A stretch of 45,262 nucleotides of DNA from Methanobacteriota archaeon (GCA_016841485.1 JAENZA010000010.1:1-45262), one strand, 5' to 3'; positions 7,772-25,389 are shown, counted from the first letter of the stretch. The notes: generated by a model from the sequence alone, not told the origin. Numbers and translations: made by a program.

Positions 7772-8671
7772 TTATCCGGTATGTTCTTTTTTTCCTGAAA
7801 ATGAAACTCCCAGATGCCGGGTGAAAAAATAATACCAGAATACGACCATCCAGATGGTAAATAAAATCCATCCCGTATGGATATGCACCTGTTCTATCAC
7901 GCCTTCAGGACCATACAGGAATCCGCTGAGTGAAATGATGGTAATCCTTCCGATATTCGATGCATAGGTTCCGATATAGCCAATGAGTATCAGAAGGCTA
8001 CCCTTCTTCGAGATTGCCTCGGGAAACGTTGCGAGCACAATGATGGTTGCAACCGTGAATGTCCCCAACGACCAGATACCCGTACAGTCTGATACCACGG
8101 CAAGCCTGACTGGTTCACCTGAAATGGATAAATATGAGATAATATTCCCATTCACATCCGCATCGATTCCCATCATGCGGACGATACCTGTTGTCAGGGC
8201 GACTGTCGGGGGGATAAGGGGGGCAATCAGGTAGTCCTCATGGCGAATAAAAAGTTCGTAAAACTCAAATCCAAGAACCGCGAGCACCGGGAAGAGTAAC
8301 GGGACTATCAATGTGCGGAATGCAAGCAGTCCAAATACAATCAGACTGATTCCTGAAAGCAGAAGGGAAAATTCAGCAATTGAGTAAGGGGGATTGCCAA
8401 GGCCGAGGGGGATAGTGAGAAAACTGAAAATCCCGATCACGATTCCTGCCGAAATAACGATGATCTGCCCCCTTCTATCAAGGTGTTGCTGAGGTTTTTT
8501 AGAGAAATATATCATTGAGATGCAGGTCAGTACCCAGATGCTGATTGCATCAACCTTTGCATAGGTAAGAGATGATGCCAGAAAAAAAAGCGCAAGGATA
8601 GCTATTGCGAGAATCACCCAGGTCTTCGCGGCCTTTTGTGGAGTGATGACATTGTTTGAATTACTACCCAT
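7772..8671 (-). CDS. artC: Archaeosortase (exosortase/archaeosortase family, probably ArtC)
   Basis: 299 aa with about eight hydrophobic segments. The three exosortase-family catalytic residues sit in their usual contexts: Cys196 in SDCTGIWS, Arg242 in NIGRI and His265 in HIHTGW. Archaeosortases are membrane transpeptidase-like enzymes that recognise C-terminal tripartite signals, remove the hydrophobic tail and are thought to attach the protein to a lipid or surface partner. The window encodes five proteins ending in PEF-CTERM signals and none with PGF-CTERM, so the ArtC type (PEF-specific) is inferred. One candidate substrate is encoded 150 nt upstream on the same strand. GGGG about 4 nt before the ATG supports the start. 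The sortase call is firm; the subfamily letter is less so. Confidence 0.88.
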   Translation of the reverse strand: MGSNSNNVITPQKAAKTWVILAIAILALFFLASSLTYAKVDAISIWVLTCISMIYFSKKPQQHLDRRGQIIVISAGIVIGIFSFLTIPLGLGNPPYSIAEFSLLLSGISLIVFGLLAFRTLIVPLLFPVLAVLGFEFYELFIRHEDYLIAPLIPPTVALTTGIVRMMGIDADVNGNIISYLSISGEPVRLAVVSDCTGIWSLGTFTVATIIVLATFPEAISKKGSLLILIGYIGTYASNIGRITIISLSGFLYGPEGVIEQVHIHTGWILFTIWMVVFWYYFFTRHLGVSFSGKKEHTG

Positions 8672-8820: not shown

Positions 8821-9681
8821 TCACCTGATTCTTCCCCGGACAAGGTACGCACTGAATGCCAGTCCGGCGACTATCGCCTGGGAGATGGCAATTCCGGGGA
8901 ATTCCGGGGTAACCATAACGCCGTCCATGCTGCTGTCACTGTAATAGATGTTCTGAATTTTTACATTCCCGTTCATGCCCACATCTGATTTTCGTATGGC
9001 AATTTCTATCACGAAATTCTCAAACCCGTTATCCTGGCGTTTCAGCCAGTCATTATTATAGGAGATGTCCGCCCTTCCAACACGAACGCCGGTCCCCGGT
9101 TGAATAATTCCGGGTTTTGCAGGTGAATAACTGGCGGTATTTTCCCATGCCGGACCCTGGATGATCGTTCCCTGGAGAGCATCTTCCCGTATTTTTACCC
9201 CATATTCGTATTCCTGATCATCAAGTGCCGGATAATTGGCAAAGATGAGCGCAAGATCCATAGGACAGGCATCCCCAACCCCATCCGGTTTCAGCGAAGT
9301 AACTATGGCAAGATAGATGAAATCCGAATCCTGGTCGAAGTAGTACGCCTCCATATCATATTCTTCCCCACCATACGGCTCGCTCACTTGTTCTTTGGTT
9401 AGGGAATGAATTCTCTGCTGTTCATTATAGAAGTACCATGAGGCACCTGTGCCCTGCATATGGACCCCCTGGAAATCCGTCGATACCACTGGATCTGAAT
9501 TGTCCTCGACAATAAACGAGACCCCGCCGTCAGGAATCCATGTTTCCGTTTCTGACCAATCGCCTGTATTGAGTCCGGACAGGCCCCAGTCGCTCAGATC
9601 TCCGTCTATTGTGTATGCCATCCCCGGCGTACACAAAATCAACGCCACTCCAACCCCAAGGATTCCCAGTAGTATTTTCAT
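8821..9681 (-). CDS. PEF-CTERM secreted protein with a CBM9/DOMON-like N-terminus
   Basis: 286 aa. It has an N-terminal signal peptide (hydrophobic core ~3-20, cleavage likely after GMA at ~22), a mature domain that begins YTIDGDLSDWG, and a C-terminal PEF-CTERM signal: TPEFP at ~258-262, a hydrophobic stretch and the basic end VRGRIR. The IDGDLSDW opening is typical of beta-sandwich domains related to carbohydrate-binding module 9/DOMON proteins, which suggests a sugar- or surface-binding protein, though I cannot confirm the fold. It lies directly upstream of the archaeosortase on the same strand and is its most obvious substrate. The 149-nt gap allows either separate or joint transcription. 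Confidence 0.85.
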   Translation of the reverse strand: MKILLGILGVGVALILCTPGMAYTIDGDLSDWGLSGLNTGDWSETETWIPDGGVSFIVEDNSDPVVSTDFQGVHMQGTGASWYFYNEQQRIHSLTKEQVSEPYGGEEYDMEAYYFDQDSDFIYLAIVTSLKPDGVGDACPMDLALIFANYPALDDQEYEYGVKIREDALQGTIIQGPAWENTASYSPAKPGIIQPGTGVRVGRADISYNNDWLKRQDNGFENFVIEIAIRKSDVGMNGNVKIQNIYYSDSSMDGVMVTPEFPGIAISQAIVAGLAFSAYLVRGRIR

Positions 9682-10012: not shown

Positions 10013-11446
10013 TCAATCTTTTTTCGTTTTGACGAGAATATCCCTAATAATGGATATATCCATGTACCCGGTCACTAAAAGAATTCCACTAAAAAGGAGT
10101 GATGACACGACGATACCAGGAACCAGAGAGATTTTGCCCACATACAGTAGGAGAAATACTGCACCAAATGAAATGAACAGATACACGAACTTATGGAAGA
10201 GAACACGTAGCGGCTCAATATCCTGGGATACATACATTGTTGCAAGGCAATAAATTACCAGGATGATAATAAAAGCCAGGTAGGCTCCAAGAAATCCAAA
10301 ATATCCAATCATAATATGGCTGAAAATGGGGAATACCAGCAAACTGATCACCGTGATGAAAACAAAAGGTTTCGTCGATTTTTCATCAAATGAAACATTC
10401 ACATAGGCGATAAACTGCTGAATAAAGATAAACACGTATCCAATGGCGATAAGAAGGATGTAATCACCCGCCTGTGCATAATCGGCGGAGAATAGCAAAA
10501 CAATCAATTCTTTGGCATAAAAGATGAGAATGAGAACGCAAAACAGGGTCATAGCAAAAAGAAGCCTCCCAATGTCTCCAAGTCCCCCTGGGCGATTCAG
10601 GAGAAGAGATTTGTCACTGGCACCTGTCGATTCAGGGACCGCTATCAGGTATAATGCCGAGGAAAAAAACGTGATGACTGCTGCCAGAGTGAGCGAAACA
10701 TCAAAAAATGCCTGAAATTCAATTCCCAGGTCATGGCTGATAACAATTTTACTGAGATTCTGGCATAAGGTAATCCATATCCCGATAATATATACCGAAA
10801 AACCAAAAACCAGGATTTTCCGGGACGGGATCTGAATTGAGTGAATGGAATCGATGATGGTCTTTGCCTTCCTGAAGAGAACCGCAAGAAGGATAATTAA
10901 CGGTGGGATGGCGAAGATAACATATAATGCATCAAAATCATAAATTCCCAGAACTGATACTGCGAAAAATATGAATAGAAGGCGAAGAACACCCGGCGCT
11001 GTGGAAATTGCCGCGGCAAATGAATGGTTTTTCTTGCCCCGCAATAGGCCCATGATATCCACGCTCAATGTCATAGAGAGTAACACAACGATTAAGACGG
11101 AAAACAGGAATGGCCACATCTCAACCGGTATATTCAGAAAAGTACAGATCTGAACCGGAAAGGCGAAGAGAACCAGTCCTACACCGGCGGTTGCAAGTAT
11201 GCCGTAGACGAGGGAAAAACCAAAATATCTTCGTCCTTCGCCCGCATGACCCAGAATATCAAACAAACAAAAATTTGTCACCAGCTGGAAGATGGCTGGC
11301 AGGGAAATTACCAGCAGAATGATGATTCCGTATTCAAAGGGTGTGAGCGCACGGGCAAGGATAATTTTCGTAATGATTCCGCAAAACCGCATAAGGACGA
11401 GGGAAAACACATAAAAAAGGGTATAAAACGAAAGATTCCGTTCCAT
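10013..11446 (-). CDS. Wzx-type polysaccharide flippase (MOP superfamily)
   Basis: 477 aa with 12-14 predicted hydrophobic segments and the N-terminal pattern of lipid-linked oligosaccharide flippases (ILARALTPFEYGI, then paired helices; central RPGGLGDIGRLLFAM). Proteins of this family move lipid-linked glycan units across the membrane. The start overlaps the stop of the upstream acyltransferase (TGATG), so translation is coupled, and it is the last gene of the operon. It uses AT-rich codons. The substrate is unknown, but the neighbours predict a modified amino-sugar glycan on a polyprenyl carrier. Confidence 0.87.
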   Translation of the reverse strand: MERNLSFYTLFYVFSLVLMRFCGIITKIILARALTPFEYGIIILLVISLPAIFQLVTNFCLFDILGHAGEGRRYFGFSLVYGILATAGVGLVLFAFPVQICTFLNIPVEMWPFLFSVLIVVLLSMTLSVDIMGLLRGKKNHSFAAAISTAPGVLRLLFIFFAVSVLGIYDFDALYVIFAIPPLIILLAVLFRKAKTIIDSIHSIQIPSRKILVFGFSVYIIGIWITLCQNLSKIVISHDLGIEFQAFFDVSLTLAAVITFFSSALYLIAVPESTGASDKSLLLNRPGGLGDIGRLLFAMTLFCVLILIFYAKELIVLLFSADYAQAGDYILLIAIGYVFIFIQQFIAYVNVSFDEKSTKPFVFITVISLLVFPIFSHIMIGYFGFLGAYLAFIIILVIYCLATMYVSQDIEPLRVLFHKFVYLFISFGAVFLLLYVGKISLVPGIVVSSLLFSGILLVTGYMDISIIRDILVKTKKD

Positions 11447-12003
11447 CAGTCATCCTCTTCTTCGGGAATGTATGCGCCGAATTTTATATCTTCCATTTCC
11501 TTACGCAATGCATCAAGGTCAGAAAACCGATTCAGGGCTTCATCAACGGTTGTTAATACTTTTGCCGGAACCCCTGCAACAATAGTTCCTGGTGCAACAT
11601 CCTTTGTAACCACAGCCCCTGCTGCCACAATGGCGCCTTCCCCAATCGTAACACCCGGAAGGATAACGGCTTTCGCTCCTATGTACCCTTTCTTTCGGAT
11701 TATTACACGTCCAAACAGTATCGGAACTTCGGGGTTAATGCAGTGATAACTGGAATCGTGGGCCACAATCATGACCCGTGGGCCGATGTTCACGCCATCC
11801 TCAATCTCAACAAGATATGGTCGTGATTCCTCGATGAAAACCCCATGCCCAATCCCTACATTGGTACCGATTTTTGTTCCCCGCCATCGGTAGAAAGTAT
11901 TGCGTAAGCGGTCATTGGGGACATTCATTGCAAGAACATGAAGAAATCCTTTCACAAGTAGGCTGAACCGGATTCGTTGGTACACGTCCTTAATAGGTCG
12001 CAA
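11446..12003 (-). CDS. Hexapeptide-repeat acyltransferase (left-handed beta-helix)
   Basis: 185 aa of the maltose/galactoside O-acetyltransferase-like group. Hexapeptide repeats run from ~43 to ~150 ([47 protein letters not shown]) and end in the usual AGVPAKVL block. His79 (VAHDSSYH region) is the likely catalytic base. Such enzymes acetylate sugar hydroxyls or amines using acetyl-CoA. The start is a TTG at 12003, supported by a purine-rich AAAGGAGAGAGG at 12009-12020; the next ATG would delete conserved sequence. It lies 67 nt after the FemAB-like gene and overlaps the flippase start. It probably decorates the polysaccharide repeat unit. Confidence 0.85.
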
Positions 12004-12070: not shown

Positions 12071-13099
12071 TCAAATTTTAACATGATATCCGATTTTTCG
12101 GGATACTATCCTTGCGCCCCTGTACATCGGATGGGAATACTTCTCCGCGGAATACCAGATGGATAGCTCAGGATTAAATTTTGATTTAAATTTCCTCAAT
12201 CGTGGATTATCGCCGCCATCCATAAATTCATAAAATCTCTCCCCTTTTTCATGAGCTGATATTATGCTTTCCCAGACCAGCAATTCATTTGGTGATAGAC
12301 CCGCGATTTTGGGTTTGGGAACTCCCACCCATTGATATACTATGCCATTGTAGCAAAGATGAATAACACCGCTCACTGTTTTTTCGTGATACTTTGCCAC
12401 AACAATTTCTAAATTATGGCCATTGTATTCATCAAAAATATCACCTAAAAACGCAGAGAGATCAGATCTATTTTTGCCCTGTGCACTGAATCGTCTCTTT
12501 AATTCGGACTCAAAAAAGGAAAGGTCAGTTTTAGTACCCTTTTCGATAACAATTCCTTTGCCCTGAGCGGATTTGATATTTGTTCGAACCGACTTGTGTA
12601 GCTGTGTCCATATATCACCAAGATCAATGCTCAAATCCAATCGATAGGTGTATAAGGGTTGTACATCGTACCCTGCCCATCGAAGGGGCCGAGAATCCAA
12701 TAATCCTGGTGCTGTACGAAGATTGATATAATTGCATCTTAGGTCAGAAAAGAGAAACCTATCTATCTCAGACTGAATACCGATCAGATACTCTTCCTTT
12801 TTAGGTTGTTTATAGGATTCATATTCAGCCATCACAGGGCCCAGATATAATACATCCGTGTTATAAGGAGGAGATAAGGCAACTCTCAGAAACCCTATAT
12901 TCTTAAAAAAAATCGGGTAATTGGCAATATGCTTTGAACCTTTGAATATCTGAAGGGGATACAACGTGCTATTGGTATGCTTTTCCATAATTTTCAGCCA
13001 TTGCCATGTATGAAAAATTGTACCAAAAGATGAGGATTGGGCGTAATCATCCCACTCTTTTTGATTGTCACCATCGGCAATGTCTATGCAAAATCCCAT
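12071..13099 (-). CDS. FemAB/GNAT-like aminoacyl- or acyltransferase (copy 1)
   Basis: 342 aa. It is a homologue of the neighbour at 13465-14517: both open with a 16-residue segment ending in EW, followed by GTIFHTWxWL, and share SPPxxTxxLYLGP, NELL(V/L)WE and KF(N)PEL-type blocks. These are features of the double-GNAT fold of FemA/FemX proteins, which transfer amino acids from aminoacyl-tRNA (or acyl groups) to amines, as in peptidoglycan bridges; related genes occur in exosortase-linked polysaccharide loci. TTG 13114 and GTG 13111 are also possible starts, but the ATG at 13099 gives exactly the same N-terminal spacing as the paralogue. The gene looks notably more AT-rich than its paralogue. 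The substrate is unknown. Confidence 0.75.
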   Translation of the reverse strand: MGFCIDIADGDNQKEWDDYAQSSSFGTIFHTWQWLKIMEKHTNSTLYPLQIFKGSKHIANYPIFFKNIGFLRVALSPPYNTDVLYLGPVMAEYESYKQPKKEEYLIGIQSEIDRFLFSDLRCNYINLRTAPGLLDSRPLRWAGYDVQPLYTYRLDLSIDLGDIWTQLHKSVRTNIKSAQGKGIVIEKGTKTDLSFFESELKRRFSAQGKNRSDLSAFLGDIFDEYNGHNLEIVVAKYHEKTVSGVIHLCYNGIVYQWVGVPKPKIAGLSPNELLVWESIISAHEKGERFYEFMDGGDNPRLRKFKSKFNPELSIWYSAEKYSHPMYRGARIVSRKIGYHVKI

Positions 13100-13464
13100 G
13101 TTTTCAAGCACCAATGAGTCCAGGTACTACTTACATATTTCCGTGGAGAGAATCAAAAGTACCTGATCCTTCTTTTCTAACAGATAATATTCGAATATTG
13201 AGATAAACGGCCGAATATCTTCGGATGAAAAGATAAAATAAGAATCATCCTGATAATATTTCACAGAATCACTCATCGTTTTCACTAAATATGAAAACGG
13301 AAAAGCTCACCCTGAGAATTGTCAGCAGGTAGCGAATAACTGCAAGACCGATATGGTCCCCAACACCCGACGGCACAATTGACCGTCATTCTCCGGGTCC
13401 CTCCCTTCCTTCACGAGAGTACATGAACATGGAGTTAATGGGGATGGCCGGTATAAACAGATTC
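13100..13464. other. Gap between the two FemAB-like genes, with a 14-bp palindrome
   Basis: About 365 nt of AT-rich sequence interrupts an otherwise tightly packed operon. It contains the perfect palindrome AATATTCGAATATT at 13186-13199, about 90-100 nt before the downstream FemAB-like start, and several TA-rich runs that could be promoter elements. No gene was seen. It may carry an internal promoter for the last three genes of the cluster. Confidence 0.4.
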
Positions 13465-14517
13465 TCAGGAAAATCCTGATCTTTTAACATAGGATATCGC
13501 TGGCTTGTAGGCATGTGCATATGCCGATTCCAGACATTCCACAAAGAATGAGGATTTTTTTGCGGAGAACCTGACATCCAACCGAGGATTGAATTTCGTA
13601 GAATAATAGGTATGCAGGCGCTCGTTTCCGGCCGCTCCCATCGTAACATACGAGGATATTCCTTGTTCACAGCAATATTGAATCTCCTCCCACAGGAGGA
13701 GATCATTGGGAGAGGGAGAGATGGATTTCAATGGCTTTGGATTTCCAATCCAGCTTAACAGGGAATCCTTATCAATAATATCAATCAGGCCGCTAACAAT
13801 CTCTCCTTCATAGTGCGTGACAAATATCTTCAGATTCTTGGGGTAGGTGTCCAATATATCGAATAAATATTCCTTTGGAACAAGTACTGATCTGCCCTGT
13901 TCGCGGTATCGTTCAACCATCAGGTGATATATTGCATCCAGCTCACTTTTTCCTCCCATTTTAACCGTGATTCCACGCTTCCGGGCCCTGGTAATATCCT
14001 GGCGCTTCTTTTTTGGAAGACTCTGGAAGAGCTTTTCTGCACCTGGCATCAAATCACTCACATAATTATATTCTGGTCTCACGGTATACCCGGACCAGGT
14101 AAAGAAGCGGGGATCCGAGAAGTTCGGCGGGAGAAATATCTGCACGTAATGGGCCCGGAGTTCCTGGTCGATGTATTCATTCACCTTATCCAGAAAAGAG
14201 GAATACATATTCTCTCTCTTGCTTTGTAGCGGTATCTTATCGGACAGAAGAGCAGGCCCAAGATAGAGAAGGGCGGTGTGAGGTGGAGGAGAGAAGACGA
14301 AGTTCAGGCCGAACTGTCTCCTCGAAAAGAGAGGAAAGAGGCCAACTGGTTCGTTCTTAACATACCCAATAAGTGGGTGCAGGGTACATCCGCTGTGTCT
14401 GGCTGCAATGTTCAGCCAGTTCCATGTGTGAAATATCGTACCTTGCGGGGATTCATTAATAATTCTGTTCCATTCGTCGGCCCTCTCTTCATCAACCCGG
14501 CATACCTTCACGATCAT
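13465..14517 (-). CDS. FemAB/GNAT-like aminoacyl- or acyltransferase (copy 2)
   Basis: 350 aa, related to the gene at 12071. It shares the GTIFHTWNWL block, the SPPPHTALLYLGP block, and a C-terminal GNAT-like region with PSPNDLLLWEEI and YSTKFNPRL. It contains a basic stretch (KKKRQDITRARKRG) at the position where FemAB-like proteins have a helical or basic segment. The ATG at 14517 overlaps the stop of the upstream polysaccharide deacetylase by 4 nt (ATGA), which fixes the start; a 26-residue longer form is rejected. Translational coupling to a deacetylase that would expose sugar amines suggests these amines as acceptors (inference). Confidence 0.77.
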   Translation of the reverse strand: MIVKVCRVDEERADEWNRIINESPQGTIFHTWNWLNIAARHSGCTLHPLIGYVKNEPVGLFPLFSRRQFGLNFVFSPPPHTALLYLGPALLSDKIPLQSKRENMYSSFLDKVNEYIDQELRAHYVQIFLPPNFSDPRFFTWSGYTVRPEYNYVSDLMPGAEKLFQSLPKKKRQDITRARKRGITVKMGGKSELDAIYHLMVERYREQGRSVLVPKEYLFDILDTYPKNLKIFVTHYEGEIVSGLIDIIDKDSLLSWIGNPKPLKSISPSPNDLLLWEEIQYCCEQGISSYVTMGAAGNERLHTYYSTKFNPRLDVRFSAKKSSFFVECLESAYAHAYKPAISYVKRSGFS

Positions 14518-16142
14518 CGCAATCGCACCACCATGGTCTCCGGTACATCCCCGGTATCGGGAGACAGGATATAGTGTTCCTTTTCCTTCCTGCAAAGCGT
14601 TGCATTGTGCGATACCAGTTCTGCAGAGTGATGTTCCGGGAGATACAGATCGAATGAACAGGCAGCGCTGCCGTCGCAGGACACCAATAATTCGTCATCA
14701 CCATGCCGATATTCAGGGGCCGCCGCCTCACGTGCCAGCCACCACGAAGCAATCTCCCGGCCGTTTGTCACCCATGCGCCATCTTCTTTGCAGGTCTCAA
14801 TAATTTTCCAGTACCATGCCCCCGTCCCCGGGTATTCCAGGGGATTCAAGACAGCAGGATGCCAGAGCAGTGTCAGGACGCCACCCCTCTCTCTGACCTG
14901 TTCAATCATCCCGCTGCAGGTGTCCCATCCCTCCTGCCCGTCCCCGAGAGCGACATCCATGAGAGAGAGGGGGATCTCGAGAAGCGGGAGTGCCCCTGTT
15001 GTACTCCACGGATGAAAGGGAAAACAGGTTCCCCCCCGAAATCCGCTGCCGTCAGCGGCCTTGTAGCCCAGGGAGGTATCATATAAAAATCCGGCCTCCG
15101 ACTGATAAATCCAGGTGTCGGGGATTGTCAGGTTCAGACGATGCTGTCGGATTCCCGTGACCGGTGTGCCTAGCAATTCCTCCAGTTCTCTCTTCTCAGA
15201 ACTGAGCAGTCCGGGATTGGTAGGGGAAAATGTCGACCCGTGGACACCGACTTCATGCCCCTCTACAGCCAGCTTGCGGATGAGGGCGAGGGCACCCGGT
15301 GTCTGCAGGGAATGGCATCGTCCATAGAGATGCCAGGACTCCGGCCTGGAAAAGCTCTTATCCCCGGATTCCTTCAGGAAAAAGTATGTCGAACAGACAC
15401 CCAGGTCTTTTTCATTCTGCATAATCTCTTCAAATGTCCAGTACGGTTCATGCCCGACGCACTTCCGGGAAAAGGACTTTACCTGGCTGAAGAATCCATG
15501 CATATCTCCCTTTCTCAGATATCTCAGGGGTCGGGTTATCCATTGATAGGTCTTTTTCAGTTCATCGACATCATGCGTGAGGCAGACTGCGAATTTCTTC
15601 CCGGAGGGCCAGTACGATTTCCGTACGAGGGGCATACCGATTTCGCCGCATCCCATCAGGATGGCCCTGAAGAGGATATTTTCGTAGATATCGACGAGTG
15701 GCGGTGAACGAAGGGGAGCATCCTGTTCCATATTTGTTACGCGGCCCGCCGCCTCCATGGAACCGGACAGGAGGGACCCTGTCAGCCGGAAAATATCAAA
15801 TCCAATAGAGATCCCTGATCCTGAACCGGAGATACAGGGATATTTCCTGTTCTCTGACCTGAATTCTGCAATACACCGATGACCTCTATCATGGGTATCA
15901 ACCGGTACCTGAAACAGGGTATATTCCTTATTGTATATCGCAATTTTTCCGGCATCTTCCTCAAGAGCGGCATTTCTTTCAATGCTGATAGAAAACTGAC
16001 CCCTCCCCTCCGCCTGATATCCAATGCATACACCGGAATCCCTGCTTTCGGACGGCGAAATCAACAGTCCGCTGGTAAGGATGAAATGATCAATCCCATA
16101 CCGGGAAATCGAATCGTCTGTCGTACAGGCAAATGAGATCAT
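14514..16142 (-). CDS. Polysaccharide deacetylase (NodB/CE4-like)
   Basis: 542 aa. The N-terminal ~180 residues match nothing I recognise. From ~183 a NodB-type domain follows: motif 1 CLTHDVDEL (Asp191 and Asp193 region), motif 2 HEVGVHG at 296-302 with the two metal-binding histidines, then GIRQHRLN, and late LLWHPAVLNP with the histidine of the last motif. These enzymes remove N-acetyl (sometimes O-acetyl) groups from polysaccharides. The HDVD variant and RQHR motif resemble the deacetylases of exosortase-associated EPS loci. The start overlaps the upstream DUF354 stop (ATGA) and the end overlaps the FemAB-like start (ATGA). There is no signal peptide, so it probably acts on a cytoplasmic lipid-linked intermediate. 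Confidence 0.85.
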   Translation of the reverse strand: MISFACTTDDSISRYGIDHFILTSGLLISPSESRDSGVCIGYQAEGRGQFSISIERNAALEEDAGKIAIYNKEYTLFQVPVDTHDRGHRCIAEFRSENRKYPCISGSGSGISIGFDIFRLTGSLLSGSMEAAGRVTNMEQDAPLRSPPLVDIYENILFRAILMGCGEIGMPLVRKSYWPSGKKFAVCLTHDVDELKKTYQWITRPLRYLRKGDMHGFFSQVKSFSRKCVGHEPYWTFEEIMQNEKDLGVCSTYFFLKESGDKSFSRPESWHLYGRCHSLQTPGALALIRKLAVEGHEVGVHGSTFSPTNPGLLSSEKRELEELLGTPVTGIRQHRLNLTIPDTWIYQSEAGFLYDTSLGYKAADGSGFRGGTCFPFHPWSTTGALPLLEIPLSLMDVALGDGQEGWDTCSGMIEQVRERGGVLTLLWHPAVLNPLEYPGTGAWYWKIIETCKEDGAWVTNGREIASWWLAREAAAPEYRHGDDELLVSCDGSAACSFDLYLPEHHSAELVSHNATLCRKEKEHYILSPDTGDVPETMVVRLR

Positions 16143-17221
16143 CTTTGCACTTCTCTGTCATCCAGGTAGTTTCGGTAACTTTCCGGATAATTCCCGATGA
16201 ACTCCGTCATCCATGCAGACACATTCATTTTGTCTGCAAGAAGGCGGTCTCGTTTATTCTGCCATTCCTTCTTTGAATCAGGGTTTTCAAGTATGTGAAC
16301 CGCCTTTTCAAGGGCGGCATCCTGGTCGGGGAAGAAGTACATCAATTCATATGTATCCCGGATTTCGAGGAAGTTCCCGCTGGTGTTGCCTGTCGCCTCT
16401 CCTCTGGCATTCGCTTCGATATGAATCGCAGGGGTTCCCAGCAGCGCGGCTTCCGTCGTTATCGTCCCCCCCTCCCCGATATAGAGTGATGCATACGCCA
16501 GGAGAGAATGAAATTTTTCCGGGGAGATGTGGAGGAGATAGTCTTCGAATTCTGGTGCCGGTGGCCGTTCGGAACTGATGAACACCCGGCCGTAGTCTTC
16601 CAGTGTTCGTACGACATGCACCGGGTCGCTCATTCCTTTCAGCCCGACGTCGTGGGATGCCGCCCATGAGATGAACCGGACAATAATGAACCTGTCGTCC
16701 CCGGTCAGATCGAGTTCATCCAGCACGGACGGGTCCGGCGAAAACTCTTCCGGGTGGAGGTAGGCAAGTTCCTTGTACCCGTCAAACCTGACGTGGCGCC
16801 GTCCAAAATCCCGCAGAAAGCACGAAGGGGTACAGATGGTGTCGGAGAATGGCGTGGTGAGCCGGAGAAGCAGATTCGCGTCCTCGGTATCGAGGAAGGT
16901 AATATATGGCCTGCGTATCACCTTCGAGACATGGGCCAGATAGGGGGACCCCAGTGCGACGAGGAGATCCGGTTTGAATTTCTGTGCGACCCGGAGTATC
17001 CGGTAATCGAACTGCAGGAGGGCAAGGGCTTTGCCGGCCATGCGTGTCCGGTGATCCCCGATATTGATATATTCAAATCCGAACCGTTCCAGGAGTTCGA
17101 GGGTCATCTCCTTGTTCCGGGTGACGATCAGAATGTCATTGCCCGCCTGCATGAGGTCGCGTATCGTCCCTTTGAAGAAATGAACATGGGCCGGGTGGCC
17201 GATATCGATCAGTATTCTCAT
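16139..17221 (-). CDS. DUF354 family GT-B protein (UDP-GlcNAc 2-epimerase/glycosyltransferase-like)
   Basis: 360 aa. It begins with the family hallmark MRILIDIGHPAHVHFF and continues with two Rossmann-like halves, including a late GEGGTITTEAALLGTPAIH block that resembles the nucleotide-sugar site of UDP-GlcNAc 2-epimerases and MurG-like transferases. DUF354 proteins are common in archaeal surface-glycan clusters. Their activity is not well established; a sugar transferase or a sugar-nucleotide epimerase is the usual guess. GGGGGAG at 17226-17232 lies 4 nt before ATG 17221, so the start 7 codons upstream is rejected. It overlaps the next gene by 4 nt. Confidence 0.83.
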   Translation of the reverse strand: MRILIDIGHPAHVHFFKGTIRDLMQAGNDILIVTRNKEMTLELLERFGFEYINIGDHRTRMAGKALALLQFDYRILRVAQKFKPDLLVALGSPYLAHVSKVIRRPYITFLDTEDANLLLRLTTPFSDTICTPSCFLRDFGRRHVRFDGYKELAYLHPEEFSPDPSVLDELDLTGDDRFIIVRFISWAASHDVGLKGMSDPVHVVRTLEDYGRVFISSERPPAPEFEDYLLHISPEKFHSLLAYASLYIGEGGTITTEAALLGTPAIHIEANARGEATGNTSGNFLEIRDTYELMYFFPDQDAALEKAVHILENPDSKKEWQNKRDRLLADKMNVSAWMTEFIGNYPESYRNYLDDREVQR

Positions 17222-17225
17222 GCAT

Positions 17226-17232
17226 CTCCCCC
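17226..17232 (-). promoter_or_regulatory. Ribosome-binding site fixing the DUF354 start
   Basis: Minus-strand GGGGGAG is 4 nt upstream of ATG 17221 and would lie inside the longer alternative reading. Confidence 0.6.
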
Positions 17233-17354
17233 TTTGTGGCATTCCCTGTTCCGTCCCGATCTCGAATAATGACGGACATACGGTGTTCCCGATTGCGAAC
17301 CGCTGAACAGCATGCTTCCGTTATATGCCCGGAATACATTCGGCCGAAGGTCAT

Positions 17355-17978
17355 CTATCGCAGGACCCATTTTATCACCTCAAAGGCCTCTGCATACCGT
17401 TCTTCAATCTGGGTGCCCCGTGTTATGGCAAGCCCCCGGATAAAGTCACTGCTAAAGTACGGCCTCTCCTTCTGTGTCTCATAGCACGCCAGTGCATCAA
17501 TCTTTTTCTGAAGGCATTCTTCATCCAGCGACACAAATGCACTGGTATTGAACGTGATGTTATTCCACGGCTGTTCGTATCCGAGGATGGTGCACTGCTT
17601 GAAAGCACGCAGCGTCTCTTCACGGGTCACCTTATGGTCCTGGTGGGTATCGAAGGAGGACGGCGTACAGACGGTGGCGGGTTTAATCTCGTTTCGTAAT
17701 GCTATCAGTGCATCAAGAATTTCCTGGCGATACCGGGGGAATTTCCGGACTTCGAATTCGAGCAGGATCGGATCATCTATCCCCAGTATCTTTGTTGCAG
17801 CCTTCACTTCCGTACGGAGAATATCCCTCGGATATTCTTCAGGGACCGATTCTTCACAACAGGACAGTGCCACATACTGGACATCATATCCTTCCAGAAT
17901 GAAACGGGCAATGGTCCCCCCGCAGCCAAGTTCTCCGTCATCCGTATGCGGACTGACGATGAGCATCCGTTTTGTCAT
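17355..17978 (-). CDS. PIG-L/LmbE family N-deacetylase
   Basis: 207 aa. It has the zinc-site motif SPHTDDGELGCGG at 9-21 (His and Asp of the HxDD motif) and the later THQDHK motif supplying the third ligand. Family members (PIG-L, MshB, BshB, LmbE) remove the acetyl group from GlcNAc attached to lipids, inositol, malate or other aglycones. It overlaps the upstream BshC-like gene by 4 nt (17975-17978), so the two are translationally coupled. This is the same enzyme pairing, though not the same full pathway, as BshB/BshC of bacillithiol synthesis. The substrate here is probably a GlcNAc-containing glycan precursor (inference). Confidence 0.87.
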   Translation of the reverse strand: MTKRMLIVSPHTDDGELGCGGTIARFILEGYDVQYVALSCCEESVPEEYPRDILRTEVKAATKILGIDDPILLEFEVRKFPRYRQEILDALIALRNEIKPATVCTPSSFDTHQDHKVTREETLRAFKQCTILGYEQPWNNITFNTSAFVSLDEECLQKKIDALACYETQKERPYFSSDFIRGLAITRGTQIEERYAEAFEVIKWVLR

Positions 17979-19513
17979 TTTTCCTCACCCCCAATGGCAG
18001 AGAGGTTCCGGTATAAGACCGGGATTTCATCCGGAGAATATTCAGATGCGTTCTCCCTGTCTTCATACACAACATCCTGTGCCATGATGCATGCCGTGTC
18101 ATACATCTCGGGAACCGAACAATTCAACGCCTCCCTCCAGCTCTCCGCAATGTACTCGCAGGAAAAATTCATGCAGAGATCAAGCAGGGACGGGACTGTT
18201 GAAAATATTCTGGAAACCATATCTGCCTGAGTTTTACCGGTCAATCTTCCGGTATTTAATCGAAGACCCTTTTTTCCGGCAGTTTCGGCTTTCATTTCCC
18301 GAACCTTTGCTTCAAGTATTCTCTGGCATTCAGAAATTCTCTCATTCAGTGTTGATTTCAGCAGGTCTTCTTTACTGAGAGAGAACGTAGTTCGTAGTTC
18401 TTCAATCGCCTTCGTGTGGATTTCTCCCAGGTAATAATCGGCTGAAGACCATGAGATCGTCACAGGCCGGTTAAAATCGACAGCTGAGGAAATTGCATCT
18501 GAAATTTTACCATATCGGAGTCCCCCACCCGGCCCTGAGATGAATACATGCGTACCAAGTCCTTCTGAAAATATCAGATTTCTGCTTACAGCAGAAAAAC
18601 TCATATTATCCAAAAAAGCTTCCAACTGACGAAAATCGGAATCAAAATCCAGCTCATAGGATTCATTGCATAGTGGGCACGTCCCTTTGCAGACCCCGGA
18701 GGAATCCATGACAAGAGCTATTTTGCCTCCACAGCTACAATGATACCAAAATGGAATTTCACCGGTGACCATCGGCCGGAATTTAAGGTGTTCTTTTCTG
18801 ATTACTTCATTATACAGTGAATTATAAATGTCCAGGTTTTCGAGGATGTGCTTACACTCTTCAGGAAAAATTTTTTTTTGCATAAGATCCGAGTACTTGA
18901 AAAAGAATACGTCACATCCAAGCATCTCTCTTGAAATATTTGAAAAAATGAACGCATTCAGATCAGAAAATGATTTGGCACGTTCATAACTGCTCCAGAG
19001 AATCTCCGATATCTTAGTATTTTCAGGCAGGCAGTCAGAATACAGATTTTCCAGCTGTGCCATCTCATCTTCCCATATTTCAAGAGGAGGTTTTTCGATT
19101 CTGTTAAATCTCTGCCATTTTTCAGAACGATTGACATTGAACCCAATTTTTTGCGTTCCATTCTTATTCAGTGCGGGTACCTGATTTTTGTAGAGATATG
19201 AGGCTGTGGTGGTATTCTGATCAAGAAATCCAAAGAATCCCATACCCTGAACCTCAACTTCATTTAGCATTTCCCCGAATCGATGGAGTAAAAATGCTTT
19301 TTTCCACACACCCGAGTATGGAAGAAAATTTGGTTGATGTCCGGACTCAAGAATGACCGTATCTTCCTGGACTGTAGGGGTATTGCCCGATTCAAATCCG
19401 GCATCATTGGCAAATGATCCTGAGAGATCCAGAAGAGAGGAGATATTTCGCTGCTGTTGCTCACTCAGCGAACGGTCCTCGGGGATCAGTTCTCTTAGAT
19501 CAGATGTTCTCAT
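17975..19513 (-). CDS. BshC-like protein with an inserted zinc-ribbon
   Basis: 512 aa. The segment VILESGHQPNFLPYSGVWKK (53-72) resembles the GQQPG-type N-terminal block of BshC, the bacillithiol cysteine-adding enzyme, and also the HQPNYFPW motif of WbqC proteins. A second block, ending GGGLRYGKISDA at 329-340, resembles the later GGP motif of BshC. Between them a cysteine cluster (259, 261, 275, 279, 282) looks like a zinc ribbon that BshC does not normally have. A helical, charged region follows (~370-430), as in BshC. It overlaps DUF1616 upstream and PIG-L downstream by 4 nt each. I suggest an amide-forming or amino-sugar modification role; confidence in the family is moderate. Confidence 0.5.
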   Translation of the reverse strand: MRTSDLRELIPEDRSLSEQQQRNISSLLDLSGSFANDAGFESGNTPTVQEDTVILESGHQPNFLPYSGVWKKAFLLHRFGEMLNEVEVQGMGFFGFLDQNTTTASYLYKNQVPALNKNGTQKIGFNVNRSEKWQRFNRIEKPPLEIWEDEMAQLENLYSDCLPENTKISEILWSSYERAKSFSDLNAFIFSNISREMLGCDVFFFKYSDLMQKKIFPEECKHILENLDIYNSLYNEVIRKEHLKFRPMVTGEIPFWYHCSCGGKIALVMDSSGVCKGTCPLCNESYELDFDSDFRQLEAFLDNMSFSAVSRNLIFSEGLGTHVFISGPGGGLRYGKISDAISSAVDFNRPVTISWSSADYYLGEIHTKAIEELRTTFSLSKEDLLKSTLNERISECQRILEAKVREMKAETAGKKGLRLNTGRLTGKTQADMVSRIFSTVPSLLDLCMNFSCEYIAESWREALNCSVPEMYDTACIMAQDVVYEDRENASEYSPDEIPVLYRNLSAIGGEEK

Positions 19514-19959
19514 TTTTTAATCCCGTTCCAGACTTTTTTTACCCATGCATCCTTATCATCGGACGTTAACCGGACTCGAAGGCGGGAACGACATACGGAA
19601 AGGAAATTTCTGTTGTCGCCTCCATTTTCAGACATATATTTCGAAATCTTCCCATTCACAATCCGTTCCGCCGTCCAGAAAGCCAGTGCGATCAGGGAGA
19701 AGATGAGAATGGCACCGGTAATGTTTGCCGGTGTTGTGTTGAGGGCAAGCACCTCATCAATGAATAGAACGATTAGTATTACCAAAGCCATGCTGAAGAT
19801 TACCGAAAGGACAATTCTTTGAAATAATGATATTTCGTTTTTTCCGGGATAGAGGGCGAGTGTTGTGGCATAGCCGGGAATAAAAAGAATGAGAAAAAAT
19901 CCCTGAATCACCTGAATTATGCCCAAAGGTATTGAAATATATTCAATAATTAAACCCAC
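19510..19959 (-). CDS. DUF1616 N-terminal-type membrane protein (half-length)
   Basis: 149 aa. Hydrophobic helices at ~10-32, ~45-68 and ~78-96 surround FLILFIPGYATTLALYP and a following RIVLSVIFSMAL. This is the PGY...ERL-type pattern of the DUF1616 membrane domain. Full-length DUF1616 proteins are roughly twice as long and end in an extracellular domain; here the chain stops after a basic cytoplasmic tail. A protein that looks like the missing part is encoded at 25686. The start appears to be GTG 19959 with a GGGG-rich upstream stretch. The end overlaps the BshC-like gene by 4 nt. DUF1616 genes are common in archaeal EPS clusters; function unknown. Confidence 0.65.
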   Translation of the reverse strand: MGLIIEYISIPLGIIQVIQGFFLILFIPGYATTLALYPGKNEISLFQRIVLSVIFSMALVILIVLFIDEVLALNTTPANITGAILIFSLIALAFWTAERIVNGKISKYMSENGGDNRNFLSVCRSRLRVRLTSDDKDAWVKKVWNGIKK

Positions 19960-20009: not shown

Positions 20010-20993
20010 CTATCCGGGAATGACAAAACCAATAAGGCAGAATATCCCTGTCAGAGCATACATCACCGTCACCGCCTGGCGTTCTTTCATCGGGAAATAA
20101 TATGGCAATACCCATTTCAGCGTCAGGGGATTCGGCACTTCAAGAGTTCCGTCTTCACGAATTTTTCCAAATTTTGCGACAGGATACCGTCGGGGGCGAA
20201 GGCGCCAATACACATACAGCAGAAAATTCGCCACATGCGGAATGAGCATCACAAAACCGCTGAAGATATAGCCATATACCACAATCGTTGCACCAATTGC
20301 TGCACCAACTGATAATGCCCCAATATTTCCCCAGAAGATACGGGCGGGATAGTTCTCAAAGAACCAGTAAGCTGCAAGAGACCCGGTGAGACATACAATA
20401 AAGAGAATATTCCAGATTTCTCCATCAGCCATTGTCTTTGCAATCAACGTGATAAGGACAATCAGTGAAAGGCCGGGCGCCAGACCATTGAACCCCGAGT
20501 GCATATTGACCAGGTTGGCAACGACCGGGACGTACAGTGGAAGAATAAGCTGGAGATAAATAATGCCCAGATCAACGGTTCCGATAAGCGGAATATACAC
20601 AAGAGTTACTGTTGCACATGATATCAGGGAATATGAACAATAATAGAGAAGAATAAGTTTTGCCGGGCGTCCAATATCAATGATATCGTCAAGAATTCCA
20701 AAAAGGGCAAAGAGCGTCACCACCATTATGATCACATAATTGACCGGCAGAATGTAGTTGCAATAAAAAAGGGAGATAATTGAGAGGGACAGGAGGGATA
20801 TCAGCAGAATTATGAGCCCTCCGTTCGTTGCAACTTCGCGATAATCCGCTTTGTACATATCTTTTGCAACAATGGAATGTTCCTTGAGTTTCCGGATAAT
20901 GGGGGGCATCACCAGTAGCGTTGCGACAAACGGTACGGAAAAAAAAACAAAAATCATCAGATTGAGAGGACTGACCAGATCCGCAATTGCCAT
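20010..20993 (-). CDS. Polyprenyl-phosphate sugar-1-phosphate transferase (GT4, MraY/WecA family)
   Basis: 327 aa with about ten membrane segments. Family motifs: KADYREVATNGG near 48, the catalytic Asp pair GILDDIIDI (Asp102/103), the Asn-rich loop VNMHSGFNGL (162-171) and WGNIGALSVGA (221-231). It would transfer HexNAc-1-phosphate from a UDP-sugar to a polyprenyl phosphate, the first lipid step of glycan assembly. In the last motif bacterial enzymes have an Asp (GDxGS) where this protein has Asn (GNxGA). A strong GAGGGGG lies about 6 nt before ATG 20993. It is the first gene of the minus-strand polysaccharide operon; DUF1616 starts 50 nt after it. Confidence 0.87.
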   Translation of the reverse strand: MAIADLVSPLNLMIFVFFSVPFVATLLVMPPIIRKLKEHSIVAKDMYKADYREVATNGGLIILLISLLSLSIISLFYCNYILPVNYVIIMVVTLFALFGILDDIIDIGRPAKLILLYYCSYSLISCATVTLVYIPLIGTVDLGIIYLQLILPLYVPVVANLVNMHSGFNGLAPGLSLIVLITLIAKTMADGEIWNILFIVCLTGSLAAYWFFENYPARIFWGNIGALSVGAAIGATIVVYGYIFSGFVMLIPHVANFLLYVYWRLRPRRYPVAKFGKIREDGTLEVPNPLTLKWVLPYYFPMKERQAVTVMYALTGIFCLIGFVIPG

Positions 20994-21531: not shown

Positions 21532-24500
21532 ATGAGTGCCACACATATTAACCCACGATTGAAACTAAATATTCCATCGGCGAGGGTAATTATAGGTCTA
21601 CTGATAATTTCCCTGGCAATACCAGCAATTGCATCAGCAGGACCGCACCCTAATCTTCTGTTTACCGATATTTCCGAAGTTCCCGGAAACCAATACGGCT
21701 CATCTGAGCCATGGAACACCTGGAAGGCAGTCATCATCAGTTCAGCAGATGCATCGCTCTCCCGTGATTTCTCCGATCCAGACTGGGCTACCTATAACCG
21801 GATATCCTACCGGAGCGAGTTTGGAAGCGATCTTGCGCTTGCCTACCAGATAACAAAGGACCCGAAATACCTGGATTCGGCATGTCAGGCTCTGCTGAAC
21901 CTCGACGTCGGGGACGTCCCCTATGAGACGGACCGGGCAGCAGCCCTGAGAGAATACGCAATTGCCTATGACTGGGTACAGCCCGGCCTGACGGCGGCAG
22001 ACGATAAAATCATACGCGATAAACTTGCGACACTTGCAGACCTGACCTATCGCGACCTGAACGGTGACGGGACAAAAACGAGCTATGTTTCGTTTGCCGA
22101 CTATCACGGACAGGCATACCCAAGTGTTGCGATCGCAGGACTTGCCCTTGAGGACTATACCAACCCGAATAACCTTGCGCTGAAATCAGGTCCTGAGGAC
22201 TGGACCCGCGCCGGAACCGATTATCTCTTTGAAAACGACGAACTTCACACGTATGATCGGTCCCTCATCTCCTTCGGATTTGATGAGGCATCAGGAAAAC
22301 ACCTCCTCGGTTCCTACAAGAACTATGTGATCGACGATCTTCTCTGGTGGTTCCAGGTCTACAGCAACCACTATGACAGAAGCATTCTCAAAGACTATCC
22401 GGTGGCAGAGAAGATCGTAACATCCGAACTCTGGGAGACGATGCCCAACGGATACATGAACAATTATGTGACGGGTGGCAATACGCTTGAAACATACCAG
22501 AGGGGCATTCTCAGTCTCCTGAATGACGATGAGAAGGGAGAAGTGCTCAGATACCTTGACCAGACCAAGGGGAATACGCTTCTTCCGTATTCCCGGGAGA
22601 ACGACCTCGCCTCGACCAAACTGCTCTTCTGTGTCTATGGCAATTACGACAGCATCAGCCGCGACACACCTGACGGGACCAGCCGCCTTGATGAGGACGC
22701 CATCTACCAGGTGTTCAGGGAAAACTGGGAGGAAGATTCGGACTGGTTGTCCCTCGTCACCTTTGATGTGGAGACCAACAGCAACCGGGACAGCGCCCAC
22801 CATGATCAGCTGAGTATTGAATACTATGGCAACGGCGACCTTCTCCTGGCAGACGCCGGTGAAACAAAGCACGTCCTCGAAGCCTATTACGGACAGTACG
22901 AGGTCCACCACAACGGGATTGCCATCGAAGACCCGCAGACGCCGTTTGCGACCTCATCCTGGGCGGACAGCCAGGCACGGGGCGTCTACAAGGGAAGTGC
23001 TGTCGGCATGAGCACCCCCGCGACGGTTGAGTCCGTGATTGAGACCCCCTGGATGGAGGGAATCGTCGCCTCGGAAACGATCACACAAGTGATCGGCAGT
23101 ATGTGGGGTGCCTCCGAAAGTCTCTCATCACCGATTGACTACAGCCGGACGATCATGTATCCTGAAGATGACTATTTCATCGTCTTCGACCGGTTTGACG
23201 GAAGCGAGGAATGGACGTACCGGAATGTATTGCGCCCGACCAGTCTGAGTATCACACCGACCGGCTCTTCGATCGGACATGTAGAGGGAAACCTCAAGAT
23301 CGACGGGACTTCCTACAACTGGTTATCACTCCCGTATAAGGACGAAACCCGCACTGGCATCACAACAAACTCCCTGACATGGGATACGACGAATCCCTAC
23401 GGCGACCAGGTCAGATTAAACATCTATTCCGCCCCGGCTTCAGAAGTGATTGTCACAAAACATGCGGGGAGAATTGCAGGATATAGCTCTGAATCCGAAG
23501 TCTATTCACCCGTTGTATACCTGAAAGACGGACCGGAGGAAGACCTGTACCGCATTACCGTTCTCACCTCGAACTATCTGGGGGAAGAACAGAAGAATAC
23601 CCAGGAAATCCCTGTTAGCGGAAATGGCAATGCAATGCAGGTCAGCACCTCGGCACATACCGATGCCATCTATTCGGGTGCCGGGGAGAGTAGCTTTGGT
23701 GCATACGCGACAGATGCCGGGATGGCATTCATCAGGACTTCCGCATCGTCACAGGACTACAGTTACACGCTCATCGAGGGAACCTACCTGAACGAAGGCG
23801 GTGCACCTCTCGTGACGAGCGCCGGAACGGAGAGTGTTTCCCTGAAAAAAGAAGGAATTTCCGTTGCCCTTGTGGTTGACGCAGCTTCAACAGGCAAGGT
23901 CTCACTCTACCAGCTGGGCACAGACATTGAGAAGGTACTGAAGGACGGGGCAGTATACACAGGCTGGCAGCTCTCTGCCGACCAATCATCCATCATCATC
24001 ACCACCGTCTCAGGAAGCCACGAATACACCTTCCTCACGTCCGGAGAAGTGATGCCCGCACCTACCGTTCTGGTAGCAGGGTTCAGTGCAACTCCGACAA
24101 CCGGCACCGCACCGCTGTCGGTTCAGTTCACCGATACCAGTATCAATGCCGTCTCCACATCATGGAACTTCGGCGACGGAGCAGTGTCCGCCGATACGAA
24201 CCCGACCCACGTCTATACGGAAGCGGGAACCTATACCGTGACCCTGACCGCAACAGGTGAGAGCGGGTCGGATACCGAAACGAAAAACGGATACATCACC
24301 GTTGTATCCGGTGGCATCCCCGTTCCCTCAGCGCCTGTTGCAGCCTTCACGGCGGATGTAACATCCGGCCAGGCGTCACTGATCGTGCAATTCACGGATG
24401 CCAGTACGAACAGTCCGGAATCATGGGCCTGGAACTTTGGTGACGGGGCATCTTCAACGGCACAACACCCGCAGCACACCTACACGGAACCCGGCACCTA

Positions 24501-25389
24501 CACCGTCACTCTGACGGCAACCAATGCCGATGGGACGGATACGGAGACGAAGACCGGCTACATATCCGTCAGCACCACGCCGACGCCGTCCGAGACCACA
24601 GTACCGGTCGCTGCATTCACGGCTGACAGTGTTCGTGGCGGGGCACCACTGGAGGTAACATTTACCGATCAAAGTCCGGGCAACCCCACGTCATGGACAT
24701 ATTACTTCGGAGACGGACAGACCACCTACGAACGAAACCCGACCCATTCCTACACAGAACCGGGCACCTACACCGTTACCCTGAGGGTATTCAATACTGA
24801 GGGCATGGACTTCGAGACGAAAGCAGGGTTCATCACGGTGACAGACGAGGACGTTCCGGCAGTGGTTACGAACCCGCCGGTGGCAGCCTTCAGTGCAGAT
24901 GTGATCTCCGGCACCGCGCCGCTGGAAGTGTCCTTCACCGATGCGAGTACATACAGCCCTAATTCATGGTCGTGGAACTTTGGTGACGGCACCACTGCAA
25001 CGGTAGCAAACCCCGTACATACCTACACCAAGCCAGGCACCTATACCGTGACCCTGGAAGTGACCAATGCCGACGGGACGGATACGGAGACGAAGACCGG
25101 CTACATATCCGTCAGCACCACGCCGACGCCGTCCGAGACCACAGTACCGGTCGCTGCATTCACGGCTGACAGTGTTCGTGGCGGGGCACCACTGGAGGTA
25201 ACATTTACCGATCAAAGTCCGGGCAACCCCACGTCATGGACATATTATTTCGGAGACGGGACAACCACATATGAACAGAACCCGACCCACACTTATACAA
25301 AATCGGGCAAATATACCGTAACCCTGAGAGTGTTCAATGATAAGGGCATTGACTTTGAAACGAAAAAGAATTATATTTTCGTTCGTTAG
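21532..25389 (+). CDS. Secreted heparinase II/III-like protein with five PKD domains
   Basis: 1285 aa. A signal peptide (~1-36) precedes an (alpha/alpha)-toroid domain (~38-430) that contains SFADYHGQAYPSVAIAG and NNYVTGGNTLETYQRG. A beta-sandwich (~430-830) with HHDQLSIEYYGNGDLLLADAGET and HHNGIAIEDP follows; this is the heparinase II/III or alginate-lyase-type arrangement of polysaccharide lyases. From ~842 five PKD domains follow, each with (N/Y)FGDG and HxYxxxGxYTVTL motifs. It ends without an anchor, so it is probably released or held by its PKD domains. Domains 2-3 and 4-5 arose by recent duplication (173 bp identical). GAGG lies 7 nt before the ATG. It may degrade or remodel the cell's own polysaccharide. 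Confidence 0.8.
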   Translation: MSATHINPRLKLNIPSARVIIGLLIISLAIPAIASAGPHPNLLFTDISEVPGNQYGSSEPWNTWKAVIISSADASLSRDFSDPDWATYNRISYRSEFGSDLALAYQITKDPKYLDSACQALLNLDVGDVPYETDRAAALREYAIAYDWVQPGLTAADDKIIRDKLATLADLTYRDLNGDGTKTSYVSFADYHGQAYPSVAIAGLALEDYTNPNNLALKSGPEDWTRAGTDYLFENDELHTYDRSLISFGFDEASGKHLLGSYKNYVIDDLLWWFQVYSNHYDRSILKDYPVAEKIVTSELWETMPNGYMNNYVTGGNTLETYQRGILSLLNDDEKGEVLRYLDQTKGNTLLPYSRENDLASTKLLFCVYGNYDSISRDTPDGTSRLDEDAIYQVFRENWEEDSDWLSLVTFDVETNSNRDSAHHDQLSIEYYGNGDLLLADAGETKHVLEAYYGQYEVHHNGIAIEDPQTPFATSSWADSQARGVYKGSAVGMSTPATVESVIETPWMEGIVASETITQVIGSMWGASESLSSPIDYSRTIMYPEDDYFIVFDRFDGSEEWTYRNVLRPTSLSITPTGSSIGHVEGNLKIDGTSYNWLSLPYKDETRTGITTNSLTWDTTNPYGDQVRLNIYSAPASEVIVTKHAGRIAGYSSESEVYSPVVYLKDGPEEDLYRITVLTSNYLGEEQKNTQEIPVSGNGNAMQVSTSAHTDAIYSGAGESSFGAYATDAGMAFIRTSASSQDYSYTLIEGTYLNEGGAPLVTSAGTESVSLKKEGISVALVVDAASTGKVSLYQLGTDIEKVLKDGAVYTGWQLSADQSSIIITTVSGSHEYTFLTSGEVMPAPTVLVAGFSATPTTGTAPLSVQFTDTSINAVSTSWNFGDGAVSADTNPTHVYTEAGTYTVTLTATGESGSDTETKNGYITVVSGGIPVPSAPVAAFTADVTSGQASLIVQFTDASTNSPESWAWNFGDGASSTAQHPQHTYTEPGTYTVTLTATNADGTDTETKTGYISVSTTPTPSETTVPVAAFTADSVRGGAPLEVTFTDQSPGNPTSWTYYFGDGQTTYERNPTHSYTEPGTYTVTLRVFNTEGMDFETKAGFITVTDEDVPAVVTNPPVAAFSADVISGTAPLEVSFTDASTYSPNSWSWNFGDGTTATVANPVHTYTKPGTYTVTLEVTNADGTDTETKTGYISVSTTPTPSETTVPVAAFTADSVRGGAPLEVTFTDQSPGNPTSWTYYFGDGTTTYEQNPTHTYTKSGKYTVTLRVFNDKGIDFETKKNYIFVR
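22159..22373 (+). repeat. 215-bp tract identical to the paralogous heparinase gene (copy 1)
   Basis: Identical base for base to 30706-30920 (offset 8547), flanked by synonymous mismatches on both sides (22158 and 22374). Confidence 0.93.
24532..24704 (+). repeat. 173-bp perfect direct repeat, copy 1 (PKD linker and domain)
   Basis: This segment spans the end of PKD domain 2, the TTPTPSETTVP linker and the first part of domain 3. It is identical base for base to 25075-25247, offset 543 bp (181 codons). Confidence 0.95.
25075..25247 (+). repeat. 173-bp perfect direct repeat, copy 2
   Basis: Second copy of the repeat at 24532-24704, spanning the end of PKD domain 4 and the start of domain 5. 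Identity ends at 25248 (T against C in copy 1) and begins just after a mismatch at 25074. Confidence 0.95.

Follow-up and report, generated by a model that had tools for sequence, protein, structure and literature searches.

The 45,262-nucleotide stretch of a Methanobacteriota archaeon (GCA_016841485.1, JAENZA010000010.1:1-45262), which is called the window here, raises the question of why one operon holds two different N-deacetylases together with three proteins predicted to form amide bonds, and what their product is used for. The original prediction read this region as a module that deacetylates an amino sugar and then re-acylates the amine, giving an aminoacylated surface glycan. The present analysis suggests, with a probability of roughly 0.55, that the product of the module is a lipid-linked amino sugar carrying amino acids, and that this sugar provides the acceptor amine of a dedicated archaeosortase encoded in the same operon.

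The operon lies entirely on the minus strand and spans positions 20993 down to 7772 of the window (Table 1). The five genes first recognised (PIG-L, NodB-type, two FemAB and BshC-like) are indeed open and co-directional on that strand, with unchanged families and boundaries, while the extent of the operon had to be revised. Its upstream part encodes a polyprenyl-phosphate sugar-1-phosphate transferase (PNPT) and a DUF1616 protein, its downstream part encodes a hexapeptide acetyltransferase, a probable flippase, a PEF-CTERM-type protein and the archaeosortase, and it also includes a DUF354 glycosyltransferase gene and a decayed ATP-grasp gene. The 4-nucleotide overlaps reported earlier, VimE-like/FemAB2 and BshC-like/PIG-L, are real, and two further ones are found at DUF1616/BshC-like and DUF354/VimE-like. 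By family and fold, the VimE-like and FemAB2 proteins, and likewise PIG-L and the BshC-like protein, make up a pair of a deacetylase and an amide-forming enzyme, so that the operon contains two such pairs, each coupled by a 4-nucleotide overlap. The ATP-grasp remnant between the FemAB genes retains residues 5-31 and 337-394 of 394 (tblastn), in different frames and with the middle deleted, and the gene is intact in three Methanomicrobiaceae relatives (G306, G371 and G377).

The archaeosortase, which closes the operon, is the only exosortase-family gene found in the genome (a single match). It scores 77.5 bits against PF09721, above the cut-off of 25.7, and its Cys, Arg and His residues are invariant in module homologues. 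Against the archaeosortase C model TIGR03762 it scores 53.9 bits, below the cut-off of 100, and an Archaeoglobi module homologue (L070) scores 151.6 bits on the same model. The secreted protein at 8821-9681 has no match to the PEF-CTERM model TIGR03024; its motif, hydrophobic stretch and basic tail were recognised by eye, likewise in its homologues, and in most relatives a homologue with a similar tail is encoded next to the archaeosortase. The number of PEF-CTERM proteins across the genome is based on one weak model search. Because the cut-offs of the VimE, TIGR03019, ArtC and PEF-CTERM models are missed, the window proteins are named with the suffix "-like".

The linkage of these genes was followed in a sample of 394 genomes of the phylum, in which VimE and exosortase searches were made on the same set and the neighbourhoods were then fetched. 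The gene set is kept in 14 largely complete loci of several archaeal families, including Methanomicrobiaceae, Archaeoglobi and others (the window, L064-L068, L070-L074, L079, L105 and L187), and is therefore not a chance assembly. All 14 loci encode the archaeosortase, PIG-L, BshC-like, DUF354, VimE-like and DUF1616 proteins and one to five FemAB copies, and PNPT is present in 13, the flippase in 12 and a PEF-family protein in 11. Strong BshC-like matches occur in 20 of the 394 genomes. An exosortase-family gene is present in 19 of these, and in 16 the two genes lie no more than 12 kb apart; three of the remaining four carry them on separate contigs, and the fourth gives no exosortase match. 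Long-form VimE-like genes lie repeatedly within a few kb of an exosortase-family gene, whereas the short-form ones examined do not. Among the loci that a pattern search finds in named genomes, 9 of 26 long-form ones are flanked by an archaeosortase, against 0 of 54 other VimE-like ones. The p of 1.3e-5 serves only as a guide, because the loci are related by descent, and contig ends truncate a large number of the long-form loci. In the tree, all archaeosortase-linked rows fall in one 33-row group (SH-aLRT 90), apart from the Methanosarcina and Methanoculleus short forms. Long VimE-like matches in G391, G140 and G154 turned out to belong to a distant clade that lacks the module, and G140 and G154 have no exosortase match. 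High-scoring exosortases at L033-L062 have no module biosynthetic genes within their short flanks. The gene identities, predicted folds, conserved catalytic residues and conserved linkage are established directly.

A partial module is found in a metagenome-assembled genome labelled Hydrothermarchaeota (L120). The module is also present on a contig labelled Deltaproteobacteria (L105, DSDU01000217.1), which is probably archaeal and mis-binned; its VimE-like protein shares 72% identity with that of the window. In Methanogenium cariaci JCM 10550 (L107) the module is present and several genes seem split in pieces, apparently by draft sequencing errors or decay.

For the module itself we infer every chemical step and its order, the identity of the sugar and amino acid, and the acceptor role. 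PNPT, which likely starts a lipid-linked glycan, would load the first sugar on polyprenyl phosphate, and the DUF354 protein would add a sugar. PIG-L and the VimE-like enzyme would each remove one N-acetyl group, and the BshC-like ligase and the FemAB transferases would put amino acids on the freed amines, which would thereby present alpha-amino groups. The flippase may carry this glycolipid outward, where the archaeosortase would cut the PEF-CTERM-type protein and the aminoacyl-sugar amine would resolve the acyl-enzyme, so that the protein becomes attached via its C-terminus. The amino-acylation logic of the original prediction is kept, and a plain surface glycan is probably an incomplete description of the product, since the archaeosortase and the dedicated PEF-CTERM-type protein to which the module is tied suggest a protein-anchoring glycolipid, instead or additionally.

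It is rather unlikely that the amino-acylated product is a surface polysaccharide or an N- or O-glycan without a role as sortase acceptor, with the archaeosortase and its substrate being co-regulated envelope genes or the substrate aiding glycan assembly. Such a product would agree with the VimE-like, FemAB and DUF354 cassettes that are widespread without an archaeosortase, yet the long-form clade keeps the whole set, archaeosortase included, across families and gene orders. Several findings weigh against an acceptor role. Cassettes that lack an archaeosortase are common, so the chemistry has other uses too, and in some Methanoperedens loci no archaeosortase lies within 10 kb of the cassette. 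In 3 of the 14 loci there is no PEF protein beside the archaeosortase, and a high-scoring ArtC of a Methanosarcina-like family (f8) occurs without a BshC-like gene. Two further points concern PssD: nearly the whole sampled order of the window lacks it, including genomes with exosortase-family matches and no module, and Archaeoglobi genomes with the module have it.

For ArtA of Haloferax, PssA, PssD and archaetidylethanolamine were proposed as the source of the acceptor (PMC7157517). That system resembles the present one in linking an archaeosortase to a pathway for a lipid-borne amine, and differs in the amine proposed. PssD was looked for in the genome of the window and was not found, which is weak evidence because almost the whole sampled order is without it; PssD was seen in one sampled member. 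In G024, one archaeosortase-family gene overlaps PssD (L188:9188-10485) and the other adjoins PIG-L/BshC-like genes, so the first forms with PssD a pair of the ArtA-PssD type, and this genome holds the pair as well as the module. Most economically, archaeosortases of this kind would be accompanied by a source of lipid-borne amine, which would here be the aminoacyl amino sugar.

The first pair of amine-modifying enzymes is formed by the VimE-like CE4 deacetylase and FemAB2. The CE4 protein (14514-16142) has no Pfam match above threshold, and its best NCBIfam match is VimE NF053580 (1.8e-23), with 82.9 bits against an equivalog cut-off of 440. Its place among CE4-type enzymes follows from the conserved Asp and His residues of metal binding and catalysis: D191, D193, H301, H334 and H428 are invariant in 20 relatives of both long and short forms, and the profile matches the polysaccharide deacetylase 3rxz (7e-5). 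Both FemAB proteins match PF13480 and PF02388 (6e-8 to 2e-10), and their scores against the XrtA/PEP-CTERM FemAB model TIGR03019 are weak (60.2 and 36 bits, cut-off 260). A profile of 33 module-locus FemABs finds FemX at E 1e-11. A predicted structure without the GNAT acyl/tRNA pocket would have refuted the original prediction, and this outcome was not obtained: the AlphaFold2 model of FemAB2 (pLDDT 91) has the FemX-type double GNAT fold and its top Foldseek match is FemX 1xf8 (E 1.2e-16, TM about 0.7). The first 22 PDB matches all belong to aminoacyl-tRNA-dependent families, namely FemX, the Sba18/Sbb17 peptide synthases, FemA and MprF-type aminoacyl-lipid synthases, and FemAB2 is accordingly predicted by this modelling to depend on aminoacyl-tRNA.

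It is improbable that the groups transferred by the FemABs, and possibly by the BshC-like protein, are ordinary acyl groups and not amino acids, which would give an unusual N-acyl sugar without a free amine and leave the archaeosortase to another acceptor. The match to the GNAT domain PF13480 fits such a reaction, as does the CapK/PaaK-like adenylate-forming ligase, a potential acyl activator, which like an ATP-grasp enzyme is added in the loci of many relatives. However, the closest FemAB folds are aminoacyl-tRNA-dependent, the acyl-CoA motif [QR]xxGx[GA] is present in 1 and absent from 32 of the 33 module FemABs, and BshC, the closest ligase fold, adds cysteine in bacillithiol synthesis.

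PIG-L and the BshC-like protein form the second pair and correspond to BshB and BshC of bacillithiol synthesis, where a deacetylase and an amino-acid ligase likewise act in sequence. PIG-L, the sole one found in the genome, scores 70.7 bits against PF02585 (cut-off 28.2) and has the H-x-D-D motif SPHTDDGELGCGG; among the NCBIfam models BshB1 TIGR04001 matches it best, at 8.5e-18, which falls short of the cut-off. For the BshC-like protein there is no Pfam match and none of relevance in NCBIfam, hence no detectable BshC sequence family, and a PDB sequence search gave just weak Zn-ribbon similarity (PARP1, Dph3) and no BshC. Its kinship is visible by fold alone: the AlphaFold2 model (pLDDT 88) has the BshC fold, with BshC 4WBD as top PDB match (E 6.5e-16, probability 1.00, TM 0.56-0.59) and class I lysyl-tRNA synthetase as the second. 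It differs from BshC in its membrane glycan setting and in an inserted Zn-ribbon, which has four cysteines invariant in the alignment. The idea that the pair makes a bacillithiol-like thiol and has nothing to do with the glycan genes would suit the BshB1 match of PIG-L and the BshC fold of its neighbour, but is rejected as very improbable because of the genomic context: no BshA is found in the window, the pair is coupled in the operon to PNPT, DUF1616 and archaeosortase genes, and its distribution follows the archaeosortase.

The proposed archaeosortase acceptor has counterparts in several bacterial systems. In the sortase A and lipid II system, which has a FemXAB bridge, an MraY-type lipid-linked precursor receives amino acids from FemAB-type enzymes and the sortase uses the added amine. 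The module would be alike in these three elements, but its sorting enzyme has an unrelated fold and the amino acid would be placed on a sugar amine and not on a peptide lysine. Bacterial PEP-CTERM/exosortase A exopolysaccharide loci also combine an exosortase-family enzyme with a FemAB (TIGR03019) and a CE4 deacetylase (TIGR03006); the window proteins match both models weakly, far below the cut-offs, and the archaeal module is set apart by its PIG-L and BshC-like pair and its single dedicated substrate. In the type IX secretion system, an amide bond joins cargo to 2-N-seryl or 2-N-glycyl sugars; which amino acid they carry depends on VimA, and VimE is a putative deacetylase (Veith et al. 2020, PMC7468200). 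This Wbp/Vim linking-sugar pathway of Porphyromonas gingivalis and Tannerella forsythia resembles the module in that a VimE-like and a FemAB-type (VimA-like) protein are expected to aminoacylate a sugar amine and accompany a protein-sorting enzyme whose reaction requires an acceptor amine. The module differs in being archaeal, in its unrelated sorting enzyme, and in its extra PIG-L/BshC-like pair and PNPT. The window is without the WbpA/B/E/D set, and an NDP-sugar dehydrogenase and a PseC-like aminotransferase adjoin PNPT in Archaeoglobi loci. The logic of deacetylation followed by re-acylation, as originally predicted, is supported by the BshB and BshC parallel, and by the published VimE and VimA pair, which is proposed to act in this way (PMC7468200).

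The same authors offered the speculation that, in PEP-CTERM systems, the exosortase acceptor is made by relatives of VimA (PMC7468200). A similar role was thus put forward for bacterial exosortases as early as 2020, and the principle extends this published precedent. What appears to be new is the archaeal module, the BshB/BshC-like pair and the linkage to an ArtC-like archaeosortase, as no description of them was found in the literature searched, which did not cover the main 2012 archaeosortase paper. A tentative generalisation, just short of even odds, is that a FemAB-type enzyme working on a lipid-linked glycan provides the acceptor amine for several unrelated sortase-type systems, namely sortase A, the type IX sortase, exosortases and some archaeosortases, and that in these archaea an ArtC-like enzyme joins the C-termini of proteins to an aminoacyl amino sugar, the product of coupled BshB/BshC-like and VimE/VimA-like pairs. 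No identification of the acceptor of exosortases, or of archaeosortases other than ArtA, was found in the same literature. With its defined set of enzymes, the chemistry predicted for them and only one dedicated substrate, the locus makes the acceptor question directly testable, and the proposal, if true, would bring amino-acid addition of the BshC and FemAB types into the biology of the archaeal envelope.

Table 1. Features of the operon, in the order of transcription; positions refer to the window.
Feature	Position	Strand	Basis
PNPT, MraY/WecA superfamily	20010..20993	-	PF00953 4e-24
DUF1616 N-terminal-like small membrane protein	19510..19959	-	PF07760 9e-11
BshC-like amino-acid ligase with inserted Zn-ribbon (predicted)	17975..19513	-	AlphaFold2 model match to BshC 4WBD
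PIG-L/BshB-type N-deacetylase	17355..17978	-	PF02585 2e-19
DUF354 GT-B-like putative glycosyltransferase	16139..17242	-	PF04007 3e-23
Long-form VimE-like CE4 deacetylase	14514..16142	-	NF053580 1.8e-23, below cut-off
FemAB2, FemX-fold transferase, predicted aminoacyl-tRNA-dependent	13465..14517	-	PF13480/PF02388; AlphaFold2 model match to FemX 1xf8
ATP-grasp ligase gene remnant	13130..13406	-	tblastn with intact L064 homologue
FemAB1, second FemX-fold transferase	12071..13114	-	PF13480 5e-10, PF02388 1e-8; alignment
Hexapeptide-repeat (LbH) acetyltransferase	11446..12003	-	PF00132 6e-11
Polytopic membrane protein, probable flippase (putative function)	10013..11446	-	No Pfam match; Wzx-like by context and hydrophobicity; kept in module
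Secreted protein, probable archaeosortase substrate	8821..9681	-	Tripartite C-terminus: VTPEFPG, hydrophobic stretch, RGR
Archaeosortase (ArtC-like)	7772..8671	-	PF09721 1.4e-21, above cut-off

A second, separate deacetylase/FemAB cassette is found in the genome of the window on a 10.6-kb contig (C3, locus L095), which encodes a short-form VimE-like protein and two FemABs and has no archaeosortase. Elsewhere in the window, positions 32841-35025 encode a BacA-type polyprenyl-diphosphate phosphatase and a Gfo/Idh protein, which is most like UDP-GlcNAc 3-dehydrogenase (NF040723, 3e-45, below cut-off); these genes could possibly supply a precursor for a 3-amino sugar. A giant PMT-like membrane protein is encoded at 26206-29877, and its relatives adjoin the module in several Archaeoglobi and other loci. 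Related secreted heparinase/lyase-like proteins are encoded at 21532-25389 and 30085-32751; the former, which has PKD repeats, is divergent from PNPT, and its relatives are placed likewise in other Methanomicrobiaceae loci.

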